A DNA stretch of 64,000 nt, taken from assembly GCF_000204415.1 (NCBI RefSeq), contig NC_015416.1, positions 1-64,000 on the forward strand. The letters are read 5' to 3'. Under the pieces are notes generated by a model, which was given only the letters and a program-made list of their open reading frames with translations, had not been told where the DNA came from and made no database searches. Numbering within the stretch: the first letter of the stretch is position 1; each line of letters starts with the position of its first letter. The DNA is from Methanothrix soehngenii GP6 (GTDB lineage Archaea; Halobacteriota; Methanosarcinia; Methanotrichales; Methanotrichaceae). The position numbers and the translations under genes are program-made. This document shows positions 2 to 54,551 of this stretch, one piece after another.

Positions 2-2995
2 TCAATCCTTATTCTGTCGTTAATAGGATTAATAATATTACCTTCAGGCGCAATGGAGGGCGGCAATCCCGCTCTCTACAATGCATACAAAGGGCTGGAT
101 GACCTTGGTGTAAAGGATGCATGGGATATGGGCTACACGGGCAAAGGAGTGAATATAGCGATAATAGACTTTGGCATAGACTTCGCTACTCCAGACCTCA
201 TGGGAACTCAAGCCCGTGTCTCAAATGTAAGCTCTCCTTACTATGGCTGGCCCATTGTAATAGATCTGGAGTCTCTCTCCTATTATCAGGATGGAACCTC
301 TGGCTTTAGTTCTCATTATGCAAATACTACCTCGATGGATGTAAGGGATTATCAGGTAACAGGAACCAGTAAGAGCGGGATTTACCATATTGGAGATCAT
401 CCCGACCAGCACATTGCTCAGTTTTATGGCCAACAAGTGAAGGTTCTCGTGGTCGATGAGAGTGTCTCTAGCGTTTATGATACAGTATACGTTGATTTGA
501 ACAACAACCATGATTTCAGGGATGATAAGCCTTGCAGAAAGGGCGATGAGGCCTCCTATTGGGATAGAGATAACGATGGCTATCCTGATGAATCTGGTGG
601 CATGGTTTACTTTATAGCTGATGGCAAGACGCCTCTGCCTTTATCAAGGATGCTCTATGGTGAGAAAGCAAAGATACCGAAGAGTGGAGAGTTAATTGCA
701 TTTGAGTGCGATGGTGACTTTCATGGAACCATGTGCGCCTCATTAATAGCGGCCCAGGGCAAAAATGTTATGGGCATCGCCCCTGATGCCAGGATAATAT
801 CTGTTCGACTGGGAAAAACTGAGGAGCTTCTCTGGTTGCTGGCTGTGCTCGGCTATGATGGAGTTCCGAATACTGGAGATGAGGCAGATGTTGTAAGTCG
901 AAGCGGAGGTTTCATGTATCGCCTTAACAAAGGTGCTGATGAGGGCTCAGCATTCTTAGAATATCTCTCCACAAACGTCTCTCCGTCCACAGCTATGATA
1001 TTTGTAAGTGGAAACGACGGTTCAGGGTATGGTACCTGCAACCCACCTTCAGGAGAGCATGCGATAAATGTAGGCGCAACCTATGATCAATGGTGGAACA
1101 ACTCCTCCTATCGAGGAGATGTAACCTGTTTTTCTTCTCGCGGGCCGAACGCTCTAGGTCAGGTCAAACCGAACGTACTAGCCCCTGGCTACCGTACGCC
1201 CGAATCTCTGCCTTTATGGATAACTCACAGCGGCAAGGCCGCATGGGACAATCATGGCGGCGGGACCAGCGGTGCAACACCCCATGCGGCTGCAGTTGTC
1301 GCTCTGATCTACCAGGCTTACAAAGAAGCTCATGGAGAGTTTCCGACCTCTGAGAAGGCCAGGGACATTCTCATGTCCTCAGCTACCGACATCAATGAAG
1401 AGATCTTCGCTCAGGGATCGGGTATGATAAACGCCGCAAAAGCAGTGGAGATCGCATCAGGAAGGAACGGAGTTCTGATTGAACCGGCCCTTCTGGTCAC
1501 GGCTCCTGTTGAGGCCGGATCCACTCTAAAGTTCAGCTTCACTCTGACGAATCATTCTGGCAGAACAGTTAATCTAAAGCCCCAGATCCTGATTAAAGAC
1601 AAAACGTGGGAATTTACACAAAGCTCGGCGAATGAGAGCATTATAGCTATCCCTGAAGATATGCTCACCTGCAACCTGCTGAAGGTTTCTTCCTATTATT
1701 CCAGGGATGCCAGGAATACAAAGCTGGAGAAAAATGAAGGCTATGACATATACCTCTACAACTGGGAAGATATGAATGAGGATGGAGAAATACAAAATGA
1801 TGAACTGAAAATAGTAGCGCTGAATACTGTTGCTTGGGGTTACGGATTTACGTCTGAAGCAAGAATGCATGATCCGTCAAAGCGAGTGAATGATGGACTT
1901 GCTGTTGTTCTCAAGAAGAGGGGCGAGATACAGAGCAATGAGACAAAAGTAGTGGTCGAAGCATATAATTGGACGCCATGGGATATCGGAATGAATATCA
2001 ATGGCAGTAAGATGAGTGTTTCAATACCAGTACCCAACACTACAGGCGTATTTCAGGGAAAGCTCCTTCTAGAGGGATATGATGGGAGACAGTGTATTCC
2101 GATATCCTTCTCAGCCTATAAACACGATGATATCTCGTTAAGCAATACTGACGATATCTACGAGAATGCCAAGATATATGGCAGGTTTGAAGGAGACGGC
2201 AAAAGCGGATGGGATACGAGGTTCTATCCGTTATACCATCGTGGTCATGACTTGGCAAATATCGATGTTACATGGGAGGATCCAAATACTGATATCGATG
2301 TTTATCTCTATGGGGAGAGTGCTTTTAATGCCTCAGATCTCTGGACGTATCCCACAAAACCGCCCGTTAACCTGCCAAAATTAAAGATTTTAAGAGAAAA
2401 CGGTCATAGCCGAAGAATCCTTGGAGATACCTTCATTATTTCTGATGAGGGTGTCGCAGGTGGCCCCAGCTATAACGTATTTTCAACATCCACGGGAGAG
2501 AATAGAGAGGTGATAACTGGTGAACTGACGAACGGGCTAAACCTTATTGTCCTGCGTCAAGTGGTCCCTGGAGGCAATGAATATGGCGAAAATGTATCTA
2601 TAGAGATCAATATCACGCCCTATAATCCCATTAATCTCGTAGCTTTAGCAGGAGAGACGGTGAACCTCACGCAAAGGAATGCAGGAGTGGACTCGATAAT
2701 GGGCTTTTCAAAGGGCGATGATCTCAAGAGTGGAGGATACTTGGAGACCTTCCAGGCAGAGGAGGGAGATCTATTGCTGATCCGTTCCAATTGCACTATT
2801 TATAAGCCACAGATATTCTTTGATTCAAACAGAAATGGGACGATTGATAGGGACATAGATGAGCTAATATTTGGCGAACAAAGGTTCGACGAGGCAGTGT
2901 GCCGAATTTTCTGTAAAATCCTGGCCTCGTATCCACAACCATTTACTCCTTTATCACAGATAAGTACTTTCTACCGGTCAGCCACTCCTCGTTGA
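2..2995 (+). CDS. Secreted subtilisin-like (S8) protease, copy 1; 5' end outside window, 3' end cut by IS
   Basis: Predicted extracellular serine protease. The first ATG in the window (53) is not the start: the frame is open to base 2 and encodes a hydrophobic stretch (SILILSLIGLIILPSGA) that looks like the end of a signal peptide, so the gene begins upstream. Counting from the ATG at 53, the catalytic triad is complete: Asp in IIDFG near residue 40, His in HGTMCA near 225, Ser in GGGTSGATPH near 405. Several Asp-rich loops (DLNNNHDFRDD, DRDNDGYPDE, DMNEDGEIQND, DSNRNGTIDRD) look like calcium sites. Authentic sequence stops at about 2892, where an IS256-type element begins; the last ~34 codons to the stop at 2995 are read from IS DNA. 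The paralogue at 5498-9148 shows that roughly 280 C-terminal residues, including an Fn3-like domain, are missing. Folding and secretion of the truncated product are possible but unproven. Confidence 0.85.
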   Translation, partial: SILILSLIGLIILPSGAMEGGNPALYNAYKGLDDLGVKDAWDMGYTGKGVNIAIIDFGIDFATPDLMGTQARVSNVSSPYYGWPIVIDLESLSYYQDGTSGFSSHYANTTSMDVRDYQVTGTSKSGIYHIGDHPDQHIAQFYGQQVKVLVVDESVSSVYDTVYVDLNNNHDFRDDKPCRKGDEASYWDRDNDGYPDESGGMVYFIADGKTPLPLSRMLYGEKAKIPKSGELIAFECDGDFHGTMCASLIAAQGKNVMGIAPDARIISVRLGKTEELLWLLAVLGYDGVPNTGDEADVVSRSGGFMYRLNKGADEGSAFLEYLSTNVSPSTAMIFVSGNDGSGYGTCNPPSGEHAINVGATYDQWWNNSSYRGDVTCFSSRGPNALGQVKPNVLAPGYRTPESLPLWITHSGKAAWDNHGGGTSGATPHAAAVVALIYQAYKEAHGEFPTSEKARDILMSSATDINEEIFAQGSGMINAAKAVEIASGRNGVLIEPALLVTAPVEAGSTLKFSFTLTNHSGRTVNLKPQILIKDKTWEFTQSSANESIIAIPEDMLTCNLLKVSSYYSRDARNTKLEKNEGYDIYLYNWEDMNEDGEIQNDELKIVALNTVAWGYGFTSEARMHDPSKRVNDGLAVVLKKRGEIQSNETKVVVEAYNWTPWDIGMNINGSKMSVSIPVPNTTGVFQGKLLLEGYDGRQCIPISFSAYKHDDISLSNTDDIYENAKIYGRFEGDGKSGWDTRFYPLYHRGHDLANIDVTWEDPNTDIDVYLYGESAFNASDLWTYPTKPPVNLPKLKILRENGHSRRILGDTFIISDEGVAGGPSYNVFSTSTGENREVITGELTNGLNLIVLRQVVPGGNEYGENVSIEINITPYNPINLVALAGETVNLTQRNAGVDSIMGFSKGDDLKSGGYLETFQAEEGDLLLIRSNCTIYKPQIFFDSNRNGTIDRDIDELIFGEQRFDEAVCRIFCKILASYPQPFTPLSQISTFYRSATPR

Positions 2996-4151
2996 TATTC
3001 ATGAGTATGGCAACTCCAAGCCTAAGAAGTGACCCATCATTGGGAAAAGCCCCAACGACTCTGCTTCTTCTCTTGAGCTCCTTATTGATTCGTTCCAGCC
3101 CGTTGGTGGTTCTAATCCTTCTCCAATGCTCTTTGGGGAATGATTTATGATTCCATATGTCCTGACTAAACCGGTCGATCGTATCAGCTGATTTTGAATA
3201 TCTCTTCTGCCTGAGTTCAATAGCCAGCTCCGCCATCTTTGTTTGGTCTTCGAATCCTTTTCTGAGCTTCTCTGCTATCTCTTCCTTATCCTTGTTTGGA
3301 ATATTGTTAAGCACCGCCCGGCTGAAATGAACCTGGCACATCTGCCATGATGCACCCAAGAACCTTGACGAGACTGCTGCTTGTATTCCTTTATGACCAT
3401 CTGATATTACCAGCTCAACACCACTCAAACCGCGATCTATAAGCTCATCAAAAAATCCAGACCAGAATCCTTCGCTCTCGCTATCGGTAATCTTGGCTCC
3501 AAGAATTTCGCGATATCCATCATCACGAATCCCTGTGATGACAAGAAAAGCTTTAGTTACGTATTTTCCGCCATCCCGGACTTTGAAGTAACTCGCATCA
3601 ACAAAAATGTACGGCATCGGGCGCTCGATAGGTCTTTTAAGGAACTCCTCTACTTTTTCATCTAGCTCCTTGGCTATACGAGATACTGTAGAAGCTGAGA
3701 GACGTTCAACTCCCAAATGAGAGATCACCTCTTGGATCCGTCTTGTTGAAACGCCTTGCAGATACGATTCTGCTATCGCATTTGTCAGAGCTATCTCCAC
3801 GCGAGAATATTTATCAAAAACACAGGATTTAAACGAACGGTCTCTAAATTGAGGTTTTTTAAGTTCCAGGTCTCCAACGCGCGTTTTAAGAGATCGCTCT
3901 TTATAGCCATTGCGTTGAGTTGTTCGCGTGGCATTTCGCTCATAGGGCTCGGCTCCTGATTGCTGTATCGCCTCTAATTGCATGACTAGGTTCAAGAACC
4001 AGGTCAGTAGCTTCTTTAATCCATCATCCTGATCGACAAGGTAATCTTCTAGCAGATCAAATATCTCCATGGCTCTGTATCCTCCTTGTTTCCAAACATA
4101 TAGTGGGTACAGGGCCTTTATATCATTTTACAGAAAAGGAAGTACACTACC
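2893..4151 (-). mobile_element. IS256-type insertion sequence A
   Basis: The ends are imperfect inverted repeats: left GGCAGTGTGCCGAATTTTCT at 2893, and the right end read inward from 4151 as GGTAGTGTACTTCCTTTTCT; both continue into GTAAAAT. One transposase gene fills the element. The left flank is 3' subtilase copy 1 sequence (RFDE codons) and the right flank is only the 6 bases TTCGCC before the next IS, which match the 5' side of subtilase copy 2. No target duplication matches across the element, which fits a deletion next to the IS. Boundaries are read by eye and may be off by one or two bases. Confidence 0.8.
2943..4070 (-). CDS. IS256-family (mutator-type) transposase
   Basis: A 375-residue DDE transposase of the usual IS256 length that cuts and pastes the surrounding element. 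Candidate catalytic residues are Asp in FVDASYFKVR (about residue 159), Asp in ELVISDGHKG (about 225) and Glu in TTNGLERINKELKRR (about 333). The N-terminal part has the typical arrangement of a short zinc/DNA-binding region followed by TRVGDLELKKPQFR. No frameshift is seen, so it is probably active or recently active. It is clearly related to, but distinct from, the transposase at 4211-5338, so the two neighbouring ISs are different species of one family. The ATG at 4070 lies about 80 bases inside the right terminal repeat. Confidence 0.92.
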   Translation of the reverse strand: MEIFDLLEDYLVDQDDGLKKLLTWFLNLVMQLEAIQQSGAEPYERNATRTTQRNGYKERSLKTRVGDLELKKPQFRDRSFKSCVFDKYSRVEIALTNAIAESYLQGVSTRRIQEVISHLGVERLSASTVSRIAKELDEKVEEFLKRPIERPMPYIFVDASYFKVRDGGKYVTKAFLVITGIRDDGYREILGAKITDSESEGFWSGFFDELIDRGLSGVELVISDGHKGIQAAVSSRFLGASWQMCQVHFSRAVLNNIPNKDKEEIAEKLRKGFEDQTKMAELAIELRQKRYSKSADTIDRFSQDIWNHKSFPKEHWRRIRTTNGLERINKELKRRSRVVGAFPNDGSLLRLGVAILMNINEEWLTGRKYLSVIKE

Positions 4152-4157
4152 TTCGCC

Positions 4158-5497
4158 GGTAGTGTCCCGAAAATGCTGTAATTTCGTAGCCGCCCTGTAT
4201 CCTACTATCATTACTCTACGTCCATCGTTAAATACTTTTTACCTGTGACCCACTCTTCATTTATATTTATCATGATGCATCCTGCCAATCTCATCAGGGA
4301 TTGATCACTCGGGAATGCTCCTACAGGTCTGCTTCTGCGCTTTAATTCCTTATTGATGCGCTCAATGATGTTTGTGGTTCGTATCCTCTTCCAATGGGCC
4401 TTCGGATACGCCTTATAATTCCATAGATCGAATCTGAACCTGTCGATTGTCTCTGCAGCTGGATCGTACCCTCTATCTCTCAGCTCCTTCGCCAGTTCTT
4501 GCATCTTCATCTCGTCATCGGATGCCTCTTTTAGCTTATCGGCGATCTCCTGTTTGTCCTTGTTGGGAATGCTCTCCAGGACTGCCCTAGAATGATGAAA
4601 ATGGCAATACTGCCAGGAGGCTCCCACAAAAGACGATTCCACTGCCTTTTGAATTCCCTTGTGTGCATCCGATATCACTAACTCGACGCCTTCTAAGCCT
4701 CTATCTTTGAGGTTTCTGAATAGTGTCATCCAATAGCCACTGTCCTCCGATTCCGCTATGCTGGCGCCCAGGATCTCTCTGAGACCATCCTCGCGAATCC
4801 CCACTACAACCAGCAAAGCCCTGTTCTTGTATTGGGCACCGCATCTCACCTTGAAGTAGGTGGCGTCAACCAGCAGATAGCGAATCTTGACTTCAATTGG
4901 GCGCTTGAGGAACTCCTCCACTTTTTCGTCGAGAATCTTGCATAAACGAGAGACCTCAGACGCAGATAACCTGTTCAAACCGAAGTTTTTGACCAATTCC
5001 TCCATTTTTCGGGTTGAAACGCCCTGGATATATGATTCTGCAATCGTCATTAGCAGAGCTTGTTCTACACGACAGTATCTTTCAAATACGCTTGATTCAA
5101 ATGGGAATTCTCTGAACTGAGGCTTATTAAGGGTTAATTCGCCAACGCGGGTCTTGAGGGTTCTCGATCTGGTGCCGTTTCTGTGTGCCTTTCTCTGAGG
5201 GCTGCGCTCGTAGGGAAGCGCACCGCTCTGCAGATATGCCTCAAACAGCATTACCGCGTTCAGGAACTCGGTTATGACCTGCTTCAGTCCGCTATTCGGA
5301 TCGACAAGATAATTTATTACTGGCTCTAATGGTTGCATGGCCTTGTGTCCTCCTTGATTTCGTGAGACAACTCAAGTATGGATACAGGGCCTATTATAAT
5401 TCTTGCAAATGATCAAAAATGCTGCTACTACCAAAGCAGCATCCAATACATCGCCAGGATTATTACTACTATTTTACATCACAATCGGGACACTACC
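4158..5497 (-). mobile_element. IS256-type insertion sequence B
   Basis: Bounded by the inverted repeat GGTAGTGTCCCGA at 4158 and its complement TCGGGACACTACC ending at 5497. It is separated from element A by just 6 bases (TTCGCC, 4152-4157). The right flank reads GACTTCGCC, the subtilase copy 2 sequence at DFATPDL. The 6-7 matching bases on the left are what remains of an 8-9 bp target duplication. A near-identical copy with two extra insertions lies at 52313-53732. Confidence 0.85.
4211..5338 (-). CDS. IS256-family transposase
   Basis: An intact 375-residue mutator-type transposase. Motifs: Asp in LLVDATYFKVR (about residue 158), Asp in ELVISDAHKG (about 225), Glu in TTNIIERINKELKRR (about 333). 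Each of the two Asp/Glu motifs aligns with those of the IS A transposase at the same spacing. The nearly identical gene in the third copy at 52366-53575 is broken, so this is the likely functional source for that subfamily in the window. Between the ATG at 5338 and the right inverted repeat lie about 160 bases that contain an outward-reading open frame which runs into subtilase copy 2. Confidence 0.93.
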   Translation of the reverse strand: MQPLEPVINYLVDPNSGLKQVITEFLNAVMLFEAYLQSGALPYERSPQRKAHRNGTRSRTLKTRVGELTLNKPQFREFPFESSVFERYCRVEQALLMTIAESYIQGVSTRKMEELVKNFGLNRLSASEVSRLCKILDEKVEEFLKRPIEVKIRYLLVDATYFKVRCGAQYKNRALLVVVGIREDGLREILGASIAESEDSGYWMTLFRNLKDRGLEGVELVISDAHKGIQKAVESSFVGASWQYCHFHHSRAVLESIPNKDKQEIADKLKEASDDEMKMQELAKELRDRGYDPAAETIDRFRFDLWNYKAYPKAHWKRIRTTNIIERINKELKRRSRPVGAFPSDQSLMRLAGCIMININEEWVTGKKYLTMDVE

Positions 5498-8400
5498 GAC
5501 TTCGCCACTCCTGACCTCATGGGAACTCAAGCCCGTGTCTCAAACGCAAGCTCTCCTTACTATGGCTGGCCCATTGTTATCGACCTGGATTCGCTATCTC
5601 TCTATAATCAGCAAAGCCCAGTAAACCCTTTCATCCAGAGCCGTTATGCGGATACCTCCTCGATAGATACAACGGGCTTTCAGACGACTGGAACCAGCAA
5701 GAGCGGCATCTACCATATAGGCGATCATCCTGATGGGTATCTTGCTCAATTCTTTGGGCAGCCTGCAAAAGTTCTCCTGGTTGACGAGAAAAGCTCTGGG
5801 GTATATGATACGGTGTACGTGGATTTGAATAATAATCGAGATTTCAAAGACGATAAACCTTGCAGAAAAGGCGATGAGATCTCCTATTGGGATAGAGATA
5901 AGGATGGCTATCCCGATGAATCGGGAGGCATGGTCTACTTTATAGCTGATGGCAAGATGCCTCTGCCACTAGCCAGAACGCTCTATGGTGAGAATGCAAA
6001 AATACCGAAGAATGGAGAGCTGGTTGCCTTCCATTACGATGATGGCTCACATGGAACTATGTGCGCCGGGATAATAGCTGCTCAGGGAAAAAATATCAAG
6101 GGCATCGCCCCTGATGCCAGGATCATGCCAGTCCAAAACTCGGCGGAAAACGATATGATCCTGTGTCTCCTTGCCTCAATCGGTTATGACGGAGTTCCAG
6201 AAAGCGGAGACGAAGCAGATATAATAAGCAGAAGCGGAGGCTTTTCGTATCTCTTCAACAAAGGCGCTGATGAGGGCTCCGCTTTCTTAGAATACCTAAC
6301 CACCAATGTTTCGCCGTCTACGACTATTGTGTATGCAAATGGAAACGACGGATCTGGATACGGCACCTGCCAGTCCCCATCGAGTGAGCATGTTATCAAT
6401 GCAGGCGCAATTTACGATCTTTGGTGGAACAGCTCTTCATATAGCGGTGACGTAATCTGTTTCTCCTCGCGTGGCCCCAATGTCCTCGGTCAGGTAAAGC
6501 CGAACGTATTAGCTACGGGTTATCTCGCACCTAGGGTCTTACCCCTATCAGAAACTCACAGTGGCAAAGCCGCATGGAACGATATGGGTGGCGGGACCAG
6601 CAGTGCAACGCCGCATGTTGCCGCAGTTATAGCTCTAATTTATCAAGCCTACAAAGATGCCCATGGAGAATTTCCGACCTCTGAGAAGGCCAGGGATATT
6701 CTAATGTCTTCTGCTACAGATATAGATGAAGAGGTCTTTGCCCAGGGCTCGGGAATAGTAAATGCAAAGAGGGCAGTGGAAATAGCATCCGGGAAAGATG
6801 GAGTTTTGATTGAACCTGCACTGCTCGTCACCTCACCTGTCGAGGCCGGTCCCGCTTTGGAGTTTAATTTAACCATTTCAAATTACTCTGGCAAGCCAAT
6901 CGACTTGAAACCAAAAATTTTAGTAAAGGAAAAATCAAAAGAATTAACTTTCGAGAATATAAATGAAAATATCGTATTTACATTACCAGGGGATATGCTC
7001 GACTGCGATTTGCTGAAGGTCTCCTCGTATTATCCAAGAGATTCCAGGAGCACGAAACTGGAGAAATACGAGGGTTATGATCTTTACCTCTATAATTGGA
7101 GAGATACGGATAGAGATGGAGAAATACAAGAACTTGAACTTGAGTCCATAGTCTCACCTGCAGGTGATATGGGCCTTGGATTTACCTCCGAAGCTAGAGT
7201 GCATAATCCTGCTGAACGAATGGATGATGCAATTGTGGGCATCTTGAAAAATAGAGGTGAAATAAAGAGCGATGTGGTTAAGGTGGCAGTCGAAAACTAC
7301 GAATGGAAACCATGGGACATAGAAACAAATCTTGATGACAATTGCCTCCGCGTCTCAATACCGACTCCAAGCACCACAGGGGTATTTCAAGGCAAAATAC
7401 TTCTGGAATATGGTGACGAGAAGCAATGCATTCCCATATCTCTTTCGACCTATCTGCACGATGGTATTAAAATAAATAATACGGGTGAGATCTTCGAAAA
7501 TGCTAAGATCTACGGGAGGTTTGAGGCTGAGCCAAGCAAGTTCTGGGATTCCAGGTTTTATCCGATATATCACCATGGCTATGGTTTAGCAACCGTTGAA
7601 GTTGCCTGGGAAGATCCGAATACGGATATAGATGTTTACCTCTATGGAGAAGACGTTTTCAACACATCAAAGCTATGGAAATTTACCGCCGCTGCACCCG
7701 TGGAGCTGCCCCCGTTGAAAGTTCTAAAAGAAAATGGACATAGCACGAGGGTCTCAGGAATCAACGTTATACTTTATGGTGATAGAGGGGTTGGGGGCAG
7801 CTACAGCAATTTTTACACATCTACGGGAGAGAATAGAGAGATAATAACCGGTGAATTAACTGAAGGACTGAACTTGATCACGCTGCATCAGGTGGTCTCT
7901 GGAGGTAATAAGTACGGAGAGAATGTAACTGTAAAAGTCAGTCCCTTGTCCTTTAACCTCATTGATATTAGAGCAAAGGCTGGAGAAACGGTAAGCTTCC
8001 TGCCAATAGGAATCGATGGCATAACAGGCTTTTCTAAAGGCGAAGAGATCAAAGGCGAGGAGTTTGCATTCAGCCCTATGGTCTTTCAAGCAAAGGAAGG
8101 AGATGTGTTAATGATACGTTCCGACGATGCTGAATACTCGCCACAGATATTCTTTGATTCAAACGGGAATGGAACGATGGACTGGGGAGCAAATATATAC
8201 TTCGGATCGGATGATAGCAGCGAGATGGATGAGCTTATATTTTCCGAAAAGAGGTATGATGGCATCGATCCTTCTTACATTGATATAATACCAATTCATA
8301 GAAATGGGACTTACTTTTTTTTCGTCATGAACCTTTACGGCGGTCTTGAACTCTACCATATGAAGAGTCAATTTGAGGCTAATACTAACGCCAGTGCACC

Positions 8401-9148
8401 AATGAAGATAAAAGCGCCTGAACAGGCAGGGGCATATTTGGGAATAGCAGAAAAGGACGGGAATCTCATACCCATTCCGGTAAAACTGGTGGTAGAAGCC
8501 GGTGAACCGATATCTATCTCCCTAGATACTGCAAACCGTGCTGATCCCAATCTGCCTTTTGAAGTCAAGCTAGAGGTGCAGGACAAATTTGGCAATTTGG
8601 TCGAGAATGATACAGCAACTGCTGTTATAGAATTTAATGGTACCACGAAGAATGTGGATCTCGTTAAAGGAAAGGATTCGATCAACTTAACAGCTCCTGA
8701 GAAAACAGGGATCTACAAGATAAAAGCACAAAGTCGATACGGCATATCTGAAAAAGATATTGAAATCATTGACAAAATCCCTATTGAAACTGGTAATACC
8801 AGCATTAACAGCACAGAAATTGAAGAGAAGATGAATCAGATAGGAGATACGAGAGGTCCTGCATCGACGGAGCAAATAAAAGATCTGCCCAAAAAGGTTG
8901 AATCAGTATCATCCATCTTGACAAGTGGCAACATAAGCCTCACCTGGCAGGCTTCAGAGGATGCGGACTATTACAATGTGTATCGCCTTAAAGGTGCCTC
9001 ATTAGAGAAGCTTGCTGAAGTAAAAAGTCCCGAATATACTTTGAAAGGAGAACTCTGGAAGAGCTATACTTTCAGGGTCTCTGCCGTGAACCGCGAAGGA
9101 AATGAGAGTGAACTGAGCGATCCTGTGGGGATAGTGGTTACTCCATGA
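5378..9148 (+). CDS. Subtilisin-like (S8) protease, copy 2; 5' end replaced by IS B
   Basis: The open frame begins inside the right end of IS B (ATG at 5378) and continues in frame into authentic subtilase sequence at 5498 (DFATPDLM). The first 40 residues are therefore IS-derived. The signal peptide and the catalytic Asp (IIDFG in copy 1) are gone, while His (HGTMCAGIIAAQG) and Ser (GGGTSSATPHVAA) remain, so proteolysis is not expected. The C-terminus is complete and shows what copy 1 lost: Ca-loop-like DSNGNGTMDWG, a beta-rich region, and a terminal fibronectin type III-like domain (about the last 90 residues, with SLTWQASEDADYYNVYRLK). Protein and DNA similarity to copy 1 is high over the shared region, so the pair arose by tandem duplication. 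Best treated as a 5'-truncated gene; expression from an IS promoter is possible. Confidence 0.8.
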   Translation: MDTGPIIILANDQKCCYYQSSIQYIARIITTILHHNRDTTDFATPDLMGTQARVSNASSPYYGWPIVIDLDSLSLYNQQSPVNPFIQSRYADTSSIDTTGFQTTGTSKSGIYHIGDHPDGYLAQFFGQPAKVLLVDEKSSGVYDTVYVDLNNNRDFKDDKPCRKGDEISYWDRDKDGYPDESGGMVYFIADGKMPLPLARTLYGENAKIPKNGELVAFHYDDGSHGTMCAGIIAAQGKNIKGIAPDARIMPVQNSAENDMILCLLASIGYDGVPESGDEADIISRSGGFSYLFNKGADEGSAFLEYLTTNVSPSTTIVYANGNDGSGYGTCQSPSSEHVINAGAIYDLWWNSSSYSGDVICFSSRGPNVLGQVKPNVLATGYLAPRVLPLSETHSGKAAWNDMGGGTSSATPHVAAVIALIYQAYKDAHGEFPTSEKARDILMSSATDIDEEVFAQGSGIVNAKRAVEIASGKDGVLIEPALLVTSPVEAGPALEFNLTISNYSGKPIDLKPKILVKEKSKELTFENINENIVFTLPGDMLDCDLLKVSSYYPRDSRSTKLEKYEGYDLYLYNWRDTDRDGEIQELELESIVSPAGDMGLGFTSEARVHNPAERMDDAIVGILKNRGEIKSDVVKVAVENYEWKPWDIETNLDDNCLRVSIPTPSTTGVFQGKILLEYGDEKQCIPISLSTYLHDGIKINNTGEIFENAKIYGRFEAEPSKFWDSRFYPIYHHGYGLATVEVAWEDPNTDIDVYLYGEDVFNTSKLWKFTAAAPVELPPLKVLKENGHSTRVSGINVILYGDRGVGGSYSNFYTSTGENREIITGELTEGLNLITLHQVVSGGNKYGENVTVKVSPLSFNLIDIRAKAGETVSFLPIGIDGITGFSKGEEIKGEEFAFSPMVFQAKEGDVLMIRSDDAEYSPQIFFDSNGNGTMDWGANIYFGSDDSSEMDELIFSEKRYDGIDPSYIDIIPIHRNGTYFFFVMNLYGGLELYHMKSQFEANTNASAPMKIKAPEQAGAYLGIAEKDGNLIPIPVKLVVEAGEPISISLDTANRADPNLPFEVKLEVQDKFGNLVENDTATAVIEFNGTTKNVDLVKGKDSINLTAPEKTGIYKIKAQSRYGISEKDIEIIDKIPIETGNTSINSTEIEEKMNQIGDTRGPASTEQIKDLPKKVESVSSILTSGNISLTWQASEDADYYNVYRLKGASLEKLAEVKSPEYTLKGELWKSYTFRVSAVNREGNESELSDPVGIVVTP

Positions 9149-52241: not shown

Positions 52242-52314
52242 GCAGGCGTTCGTGCGTGCTCTCGCATGGGCGCGCGTGGCCGCGTGGGCTTGCCGCCTGG
52301 GGGCCGGTTGGGGG
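52242..52314. repeat. GC-rich direct repeat R2
   Basis: Second copy of R1 (GTGCTCTCGCATGG at 52256, then GCGTGGGCTTGCCGC and GGGGGCCGG). Its right end is cut by, or directly abuts, the third IS256-type element at 52313. Confidence 0.65.
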
Positions 52315-52760
52315 TAGTGTCCCGAAATTGCTGTAATTTAGCCGCCCTGTATCCTACTATCATTACTATACGTCCATCGTTAAATACTTTTTACCTGTGA
52401 CCCACTCTTCATTTATATTTATCATGATGCATCCTGCCAATCTCATCAGGGATTGATCACTCGGGAATGCTCCTACAGGTCTGCTTCTGCGCTTTAATTC
52501 CTTATTGATGCGCTCAATGATGTTTGTGGTTCGTATCCTCTTCCAATGGGCCTTCGGATACGCCTTATAATTCCATAGATCGAATCTGAACCTGTCGATT
52601 GTCTCTGCAGCAGGATCGTAACCTCTATCTCTCAGCTCCTTCGCCAGTTCTTGCATCTTCATCTCGTCATCGGATGCCTCTTTTAGCTTATCGGCGATCT
52701 CCTGTTTGTCCTTGTTGGGAATGCTCTCCAGGACCGCTCTTGAATGGTGAAAACGGCAAT

Positions 52761-52804
52761 GTTTCGACTTTGTCGAAACTCTCGCTGACTTCAGTCAGCG
52801 ATAT
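52761..52804. repeat. Twin-hairpin micro-insertion 1
   Basis: Absent from the matching site of IS B (about 4604). Two perfect adjacent hairpins: GTTTCGACTTTGTCGAAAC (19 nt, 8-bp stem, 3-nt loop) and TCGCTGACTTCAGTCAGCGA (20 nt, 9-bp stem, 2-nt loop), spaced by 2 nt. Confidence 0.85.
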
Positions 52805-53497
52805 CTGCCAGGAGGCTCCCACAAAAGACGATTCCACTGCCTTTTGAATTCCCTTGTGTGCATCTGATATCACCAACTCGACGCCCTCTAATCCCCTATC
52901 CTTGAGGCTTCTGAATAGTGTCATCCAATAGCCACTGTCCTCTGATTCCGCTATGCTGGCGCCCAGGATCTCTCTGAGACCATCCTCGCGAATCCCCACT
53001 ACAACCAGCAAAGCCCTGTTCTTGTATTGGGCACCGCATCTCACCTTGAAGTAGGTGGCGTCAACCAGCAGATAGCGAATCTTGACTTCAATTGGGCGCT
53101 TGAGGAACTCCTCCACTTTTTCGTCGAGAATCTTGCATAAACGAGAGACCTCAGACGCAGATAACCTGTTCAAACCGAAGTTTTTGACCAATTCCTCCAT
53201 TTTTCGGGTTGAAACGCCCTGGATATATGATTCTGCAATCGTCATTAGCAGAGCTTGTTCTACACGACAGTATCTTTCAAATACGCTTGATTCAAATGGG
53301 AATTCTCTGAACTGAGGCTTATTAAGGGTCAATTCGCCAACGCGGGTCTTGAGGGTTCTCGATCTAGTGCCGTTTCTGTGGGCCTTTCTCTGAGGGCTGC
53401 GCTCGTAGGGAAGCGCACCGCTCTGCAGATATGCCTCAAACAGCATTACCGCGTTCAGGAACTCGGTTATGACCTGCTTCAGTCCGCTATTCGGATC

Positions 53498-53539
53498 TTT
53501 CACCTACGGGGAAAGAGTCCCGATCTCAATCGGGACATC
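53498..53539. repeat. Twin-hairpin micro-insertion 2
   Basis: Absent from the matching site of IS B (about 5302). Counting the C at 53497: CTTTCACCTACGGGGAAAG (19 nt, 8-bp stem with one mismatch, 3-nt loop), then GTCCCGATCTCAATCGGGAC (20 nt, 8-bp stem), spaced by 1 nt. ATC is repeated at both edges. The second stem shares AATCGGGAC with the IS end. Confidence 0.85.
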
Positions 53540-53708
53540 GACAAGATAATTTATTACTGGCTCTAATGGTTGCATGGCCTTGTGTCCTCCTTGATTTCGA
53601 GACAACTCAAGTATGAATACAGGGCCTATTATAATTCTTGCAAATGATCAAAAATGCTGCTACTACCAAAGCAGCATCCAATACATCGCCAGGATTATTA
53701 CTACTATT

Positions 53709-54551
53709 TTACATCATAATCGGGACACTACCGATCATCCTCTCGGATTCTTCAATTATGCCGGGATTTTCGAAGAACTCCGCGGCAGTTCTTAAGGCTG
53801 AAGATGTCTCTTCGATGCCCAGGAAGCTCACATTTCGGTAGGGTATGCCATACTCCTCTTCAAATCGCCTGGCTAGGGAGCCAATGGAGCTGCTACACTG
53901 TACCAGATTCAGATCTGCGCAATGAGCCCTCTGAATCTCTGCAACTCTTGAATCACCGGTTATTGCAGATATCACCTCAATACCCAGCTCTTCAAGGTAG
54001 GATCTGATAGGCCATAGATCTCCTGCAATGTTGTAATCTCCCAGGATGTTCACTGAATAGGGGCTTATGGGCTTGTAGCTCCTGCTGCCTATCAGCCTCA
54101 AGAGTGCATTGCATGCTGCTTCGTATCCCGTCTCCGCCTGGAAACCCATGCTACCCACCGGAATGACAGGTATCCTCAGATCCTTCGCCGCAGATTCACA
54201 CACTTCACTGACATCGCAACCCATTGTCTCGGTCATGCAGGTGGAATAGACGAATATGGCCTGGGGCTTGCAGGCTGCAGCTAGCTCCCGCATGACTTGA
54301 GCAGATAATCCTAAATTATCGAAGAATATCTTATCTCGTTTACCATGAAGCATTGGTTGGCTGGAAATGCTTCCACGCGCGTTCCAGGCATATGTAGCGC
54401 ATGTAGCGCATTCAAGTGGTCCTTGGACCACATGCATGGCATCTGCTATTGGATTCAAAACAGATATCGCTCTGGAGTAAGCACAGGCTCCATGAGCTGC
54501 ATCTTCATCGAAGAGGCTCTTTTCGCACGCTAGAGACTTTAATTCATCCAT
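53709..54551 (-). pseudogene. NifE-like nitrogenase cofactor-scaffold protein, 3' end removed by IS
   Basis: The N-terminal ~273 residues resemble NifE: ACAYSRAISVLNPIADAMHV, VQGPLECATCATYAWNARGS, FVYSTCMTETMGCDV, and SVNILGDYNIAGDLWPIRSY. NifE is usually about 450 residues, so roughly 40% is missing. At 53732 the reading enters the IS256-type element and stops within 8 codons (GSVPIMM). The missing part is not on the other side of the IS. Candidate cysteine ligands remain (Cys in LECATCA and STCMTE). No nif neighbours; the original role (nitrogenase, or another nitrogenase-like enzyme) is undetermined. Confidence 0.8.

Follow-up and report, generated by a model that had tools for sequence, protein, structure and literature searches.

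The inserted IS copy and its surroundings

The window analysed here is a stretch of 64,000 nucleotides from Methanothrix soehngenii GP6 (NC_015416.1, positions 1 to 64,000), the genome of which consists of a 3,008,626-bp contig and a second small contig (3,026,645 bp in all). The window contains one empty and one inserted copy of the same IS256-type insertion sequence (IS). The inserted copy carries two short segments, each of which folds into a pair of adjacent hairpins, referred to here as a twin hairpin. The features are as follows.

2943–4070, minus strand: second IS256-type transposase subfamily, related by translation to a fragment at genome position 849918
4158–5499, minus strand: empty copy of the IS, with empty sites at about 4608/4610 and 5299/5300
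4211–5338, minus strand: transposase gene of this empty copy, intact and encoding 375 aa (Pfam Transposase_mut, E = 6.6e-98)
52313–53735, minus strand: IS copy with both twin-hairpin inserts and an interrupted transposase (alignment to other copies)
52762–52804, plus strand: insert 1, 43 bp net, its boundary ambiguous by 1–2 nt (gap relative to empty copies)
52761–52779, plus strand: first hairpin of insert 1, GTTTCGAC-TTT-GTCGAAAC (hairpin scan, folding)
52782–52801, plus strand: second hairpin of insert 1, TCGCTGAC-TTCA-GTCAGCGA (hairpin scan, folding)
53495–53536, plus strand: insert 2, 42 bp, with the direct repeat ATC at 53495–53497 and 53537–53539 (gap relative to empty copies)
53497–53515, plus strand: first hairpin of insert 2, CTTTCACC-TAC-GGGGAAAG, with one A.G mismatch (folding)
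53517–53536, plus strand: second hairpin of insert 2, GTCCCGAT-CTCA-ATCGGGAC (hairpin scan, folding)

Alignment bears out the original prediction that this copy has two extra segments, net 43 and 42 bp, relative to the IS at 4158. The same prediction described each segment as a hairpin with an 8-bp stem and a 3-nt loop followed by a second hairpin. This holds for insert 1, the sole perfect-stem pair listed by the first hairpin scan of the window, but not strictly for insert 2, because of the mismatch in its first stem. The hairpins are separated by TC in insert 1 and by A in insert 2, and both first hairpins begin with TTTC and finish with GAAA. Against dinucleotide shuffles, the folding z-scores are −6.8 (insert 1) and −5.1 (insert 2), and 0 of 200 shuffles were equally stable. 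A covariance model (described below) matches 52761–52801 and 53497–53536, and an Rfam search of the window and seven further loci gave 0 matches above the gathering score. The match noticed earlier between an insert stem and the IS end, AATCGGGAC (in the IS end CAATCGGGACA, 11 nt), is real. It is probably a coincidence, since the homologous insert of another genome (locus L053, genome G024) reads GTCTCGAT..ATCGAGAC.

The IS copies near the start of the window are flanked by two large paralogous open reading frames (53–2995 and 5378–9148) that look subtilase-like by eye. The one at 5378 begins within the IS at 4158–5499, as though the IS broke up the second paralogous gene.

Effect of the inserts on the host transposase

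Read along the coding strand, the net +43 of insert 1 causes a frameshift directly after the GASWQ motif. Insert 2 (+42) keeps the frame but adds an in-frame TAG, beyond which a GTG start is open. In this IS, the inserts are predicted to have destroyed or truncated the host transposase. With the TAG and the open GTG lying within 53460–53540 of the window, the genomic copy at 530851 could still yield a transposase that lacks its first residues. In several filled copies, the frame 3' of the insert is intact. An otherwise open IS256 transposase gene in genome G234 (L264) contains a 39-nt in-frame twin hairpin flanked by CAC, a few nt downstream of IS256 site 1, the site of insert 1.

Order of gain among the IS copies

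The genome holds four full copies of the IS256-type element, and their inserts form a staircase: the copy at 4158 has none, that at 530851 has insert 2 only, and those at 52313 and 562609 have both. Insert 1 is identical in its two genomic copies and insert 2 in its three. Relatives of the IS in genomes G016 and G017 (82 and 79% identity) give full-length matches of 1338 and 1341 bp, which is the uninserted size. Because of the staircase and these uninserted-length relatives, the insert-free state is taken as ancestral, with insert 2 gained first and insert 1 later. Judged from the sequences, gain in this element was thus stepwise, insert 2 preceding insert 1. Around the inserts, the four copies are mosaics of shared variants, and therefore recombination has occurred between them.

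Filled and empty sites in other elements

Self-comparison covered 1.66 Mb of genome stretches, with model and pattern searches for the remainder. A plain census of hairpin pairs in this sample stays near background except at the IS256 inserts and other inserted copies. As a result, the census does not reveal a class by itself; indels between paralogues do. When gaps of 20–100 bp between paralogues were tabulated from a self-BLAST of the 1.66 Mb, all gaps of 42–45 bp except one proved to be twin hairpins, located in the IS256 element and in two tnpB types. The first tnpB type has 45-bp twin hairpins at 1355545 and 2802705, in frame where translated, and the second has a 42-bp twin hairpin at 733154. 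The exception, at 746635 (contig C1), is a 43-bp indel between 70%-identical paralogues and contains no twin hairpin.

The left ends of TnpB elements provide many empty and many filled loci. The empty form reads CATCC/CCACCCTGAAGGATG and the filled form has a 45-bp twin hairpin, the second stem of which varies between species. At L149, a twin hairpin lies in reversed orientation at a nearby site. In the isolate PFL3, alignment of filled IS5 copies (L231, L278, L222, L226) with empty ones (L233, L235, L237) leaves a clean gap of 44 nt, located at a single codon position. IS5 has a second site with variant twin hairpins (L276, L281), and further variants occupy IS256 site 1 (L278, L279, L280). 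Filled and empty sites are thus found for IS256, tnpB, TnpB left ends, and IS5. The general architecture is a hairpin with an 8-bp stem and a 3-nt loop, 0–4 nt, and a second hairpin, about 39–48 bp in all.

No constant target-site duplication was found at these sites: the end repeats differ between subfamilies, and some are ambiguous. They are ATC at insert 2, AT at 733154, CAC at L264, and GATG-like elsewhere, with none clear in IS5. Such variable ends are not what a fixed duplication would leave, nor do they fit a single cleavage site. Insertion at hairpin tips was considered as a general rule, which fails for insert 2 and for 733154. A tip position does hold for insert 1 (empty site TGGCA-ATAC-TGCCA), for a nested copy (described below), and for palindromic repeats of genome G232.

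Distribution across species

A covariance model built from eight copies was run on 26 genomes of the genus and then on 238 genomes of the class, with matches accepted at E up to 0.02. It matched 19 of 50 Methanotrichaceae genomes and, weakly, one of the 188 other genomes of the class. A collection of 84,980 species was searched with the stem pattern of insert 1 (GTTTCGAC..GTCGAAAC TC TCGCTGAC..GTCAGCGA, loops free). This gave nine stretches, all from Methanotrichaceae: five are TnpB-element left ends and four are IS5-type transposase sequence of PFL3. Viral contigs searched with the same pattern gave no match. The insert-1 stems are found in IS256, IS5, and TnpB left ends of several species, with differing loops. 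In the nine stretches, the first loop reads TTCTC, ATCTC, TAC, TGT, or TGC, and the second CCGCG, CCGTG, TGAC, TGAT, TAGA, or TA. Twin hairpins also lie close to host genes in one genus.

Pairing is maintained as the stems diverge. Among 54 distinct copies, standard pairs fill 96.2% of the pair cells, compared to 67.2% after shuffling, and 14 of the 16 stem pairs have double-sided substitutions. The covariation score of these copies is 0.671 vs 0.157 shuffled (0 of 500 shuffles reached it; slid versions score at most 0.106), a wide margin in an alignment that was fitted to the model and is thereby biased toward structure. The most conserved part of the first hairpin is the core CGAC-nnn-GTCG. 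The statement that the stem sequences differ completely, so that structure rather than sequence is shared, is correct between the two inserts and between subfamilies. It does not extend further, since each insert has sequence relatives elsewhere and sequence is shared within subfamilies.

Recurrence at the same sites and nesting

Divergent transposons carry twin hairpins at identical positions. For example, the IS256 fragment at 849918, which belongs to the second subfamily, has insert 2 at the same site, with 39 of 40 element positions identical (97.5%) and flanks that are 66.7 and 73.7% identical. L053 is an IS256 copy with stop codons and has inserts at both of the IS256 sites known from the GP6 copy. 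The element at site 1 of L053 shares its stems with insert 1; folding resolves a further twin hairpin within the loop of the first hairpin of that element. By inspection, the reverse complement of the element at 733154 belongs to the stem family of this nested element; another copy of the subfamily lies at L208 (genome G003). Some same-site cases could reflect recombination or common ancestry instead of fresh insertion.

Origin of the inserts

The inserts are probably separate insertions of a non-autonomous mobile family of twin hairpins, about 39–48 bp long and confined to Methanotrichaceae. Comparison of filled and empty sites demonstrates, at the level of sequence, insertion, recurrence, and movement between unrelated sequences. 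We infer that the folded hairpin pair is recognised, that movement takes place at the DNA level, and that a single enzyme is responsible. In the proposed mechanism, a putative trans-acting activity would recognise the folded pair in single-stranded or extruded DNA and would place twin hairpins at preferred targets. Afterwards, they would multiply via transposition of the host IS and recombination between IS copies. A more tentative version, which we consider possible but doubtful, treats them as homing-like micro-elements of about 40 bp. In that version, a putative archaeal activity would hit conserved transposase motifs again and again, and the elements would be structure-defined parasites that disable transposons.

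Spread by recombination (gene conversion) between transposon copies, instead of transposition, is unlikely. It would account for the mosaics around the inserts in the four IS copies and for the location of recurrent sites in conserved coding stretches, but IS256, IS5, and TnpB left ends, all of which contain insert-1 stems, have no flanking homology in common. It is less probable still that the inserts each go back to a single event in an ancestral transposon, were passed on by descent, and were precisely deleted from the copies now empty. Both sites are indeed filled in IS256 copies from G000, G024, and PFL3 that share 61–67% identity, and IS5 copies of 65% identity are likewise filled at one common site. 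However, element identity is far above flank identity (39/40 vs 67–74%), empty IS5 copies are nearer to some filled copies than filled ones are to each other, and unrelated transposon families have the same stems. The PFL3 IS5 comparison suggests that the filled state is nested within empty clades.

The inserts might alternatively be kept as RNA-level features: if, for instance, the mRNA lost them or the ribosome passed over them, the transposase would stay functional. The covarying stems, the intact frame beyond the insert in several filled copies, and the in-frame GAT..GAT that flanks both insert 2, with its internal stop, and its L053 homologue are as such a reading would have them. Nevertheless, we regard it as very improbable: insert-1-type copies have no matching take-off and landing codons, many copies are in non-coding left ends, several host copies (such as L053 with its stops) are already pseudogenes, and we know of no archaeal machinery for such removal or skipping. 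Selection at the RNA level had been among the original suggestions; it may act, as stem covariation is strong, but it is not needed. One-off products of template switching or hairpin repair, which would constitute no family, rank marginally lower. Perfect small hairpins are typical of that process and the loops are hypervariable, but the stems are unlike their flanks, and they turn up again at unrelated loci and in further species, so the earlier proposal of template switching by itself is not supported. An assembly or sequencing artefact is extremely improbable. Although repeats are prone to misassembly, identical inserts stand in two and three distinct places of the genome, and independently assembled genomes contain homologues. 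The mobile-family reading, by comparison, gains from the search for similar insertions in this genome and its relatives, which found them with interrupted and empty sites. Identical or near-identical twin hairpins in unrelated host sequences and species, at sites known in the empty state, thus support the original suggestion of a tiny mobile element class.

Relation to known small elements

Twin hairpins would count as some of the smallest mobile DNA known; their stems are conserved and their loops hypervariable. They would favour transposons as targets and can hit one position more than once, which suggests a natural brake on transposons. Rickettsia palindromic elements and the small dispersed repeats of cyanobacteria are likewise small palindromic inserts that can sit in frame within genes or inside other repeats, but they are bacterial, are longer or have a single hairpin, and are not known to concentrate in transposases. 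The translational bypassing elements (byps) of yeast mitochondria are mobile hairpin inserts of 27–55 nt in coding sequence. For insert 1, translational bypass fails on its codon rule: the GAT/GAT codon match of insert 2 and its L053 homologue has no counterpart in the insert-1 type. Many copies are non-coding.

Fungal mitochondrial DNA contains double-hairpin elements (DHEs; Paquin, Laforest and Lang 2000, as cited in PMC10085805) that are also very small and non-coding, have two adjacent hairpins, and occur in genes and intergenic DNA. Twin hairpins likewise consist of two adjacent hairpins in tens of bp. In fission yeasts, DHEs from different species have the same sequence or differ in a loop (PMC10085805). 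In contrast to DHEs, twin hairpins are in an archaeal chromosome, fall into several unrelated stem subfamilies, and are mostly inside transposons; the likeness is one of description, and sequence homology is not expected. We file the fungal mitochondrial DHE as the nearest functional analogue, in that twin hairpins would work like a DHE without being a member. The searched literature gave no account of such elements in Archaea, and double-hairpin DNA movement becomes testable in the chromosome of a cultured host.

REP sequences and REPINs, which are moved by RAYT (PMC3116915, PMC3733652), resemble twin hairpins as short paired palindromes with compensatory changes that are non-autonomous and probably involve single-strand handling. 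They differ in that the two REPs of a REPIN pair together, whereas each hairpin of a twin is self-contained. Twin-hairpin copies also lie inside transposase genes, and their richest genomes have no PF01797 (Y1 transposase) gene. By inspection, an invariant GTAG or CGTC foot is absent from the aligned copies. In Archaea, only the IS200-type Y1 subclass has been reported (PMC6006769). The two hairpins recall the two ends, left and right, of an IS605-type element, as in an IS200/IS605 MITE, and the GAT-type direct repeats at insertion sites could be cleavage sites, but only the two hairpins are present and the richest genomes are without TnpA. The first hairpin also resembles the insert of TnpB left ends, though the latter is itself an insertion with empty sites.

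Copy-rich genomes

The motif TTCGACNNNGTCGAA occurs 62 times in G232, 49 in G233, 17 in G234, and 9 in G219, compared to 2, 2, 0, and 1 for the reversed control. The PF01797 profile has no match in G231–G235, which include the three copy-richest genomes; a PF01797 gene is present in G000. A RAYT or IS200-type enzyme is therefore no obvious mover in G232 and G233, and the absence from the richest genomes weakens the case for a Y1 transposase as the present mover.

In G232 and G233, the hairpins are found singly, as twins, or as triples; many of them sit at the tip of a larger palindromic repeat and may spread with it. At loci L296–L315 of G232, for example, abundant palindromic repeats of about 80–100 bp are tipped by a TTCGACnnnGTCGAA hairpin, in some cases extended to two or three hairpins. 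Some copies in G232 and G233 are at the end of pyrD, where the region is too diverged to provide a clean empty/filled pair. At L312 (13234–13596), the 10-nt repeat GAAGATGGTG flanks a 45-nt twin hairpin that lies in frame close to the beginning of a host gene. By eye, this gene looks DUF296/PPC-like, as does the gene at the start of which some hairpins of G232 and G233 lie in frame.
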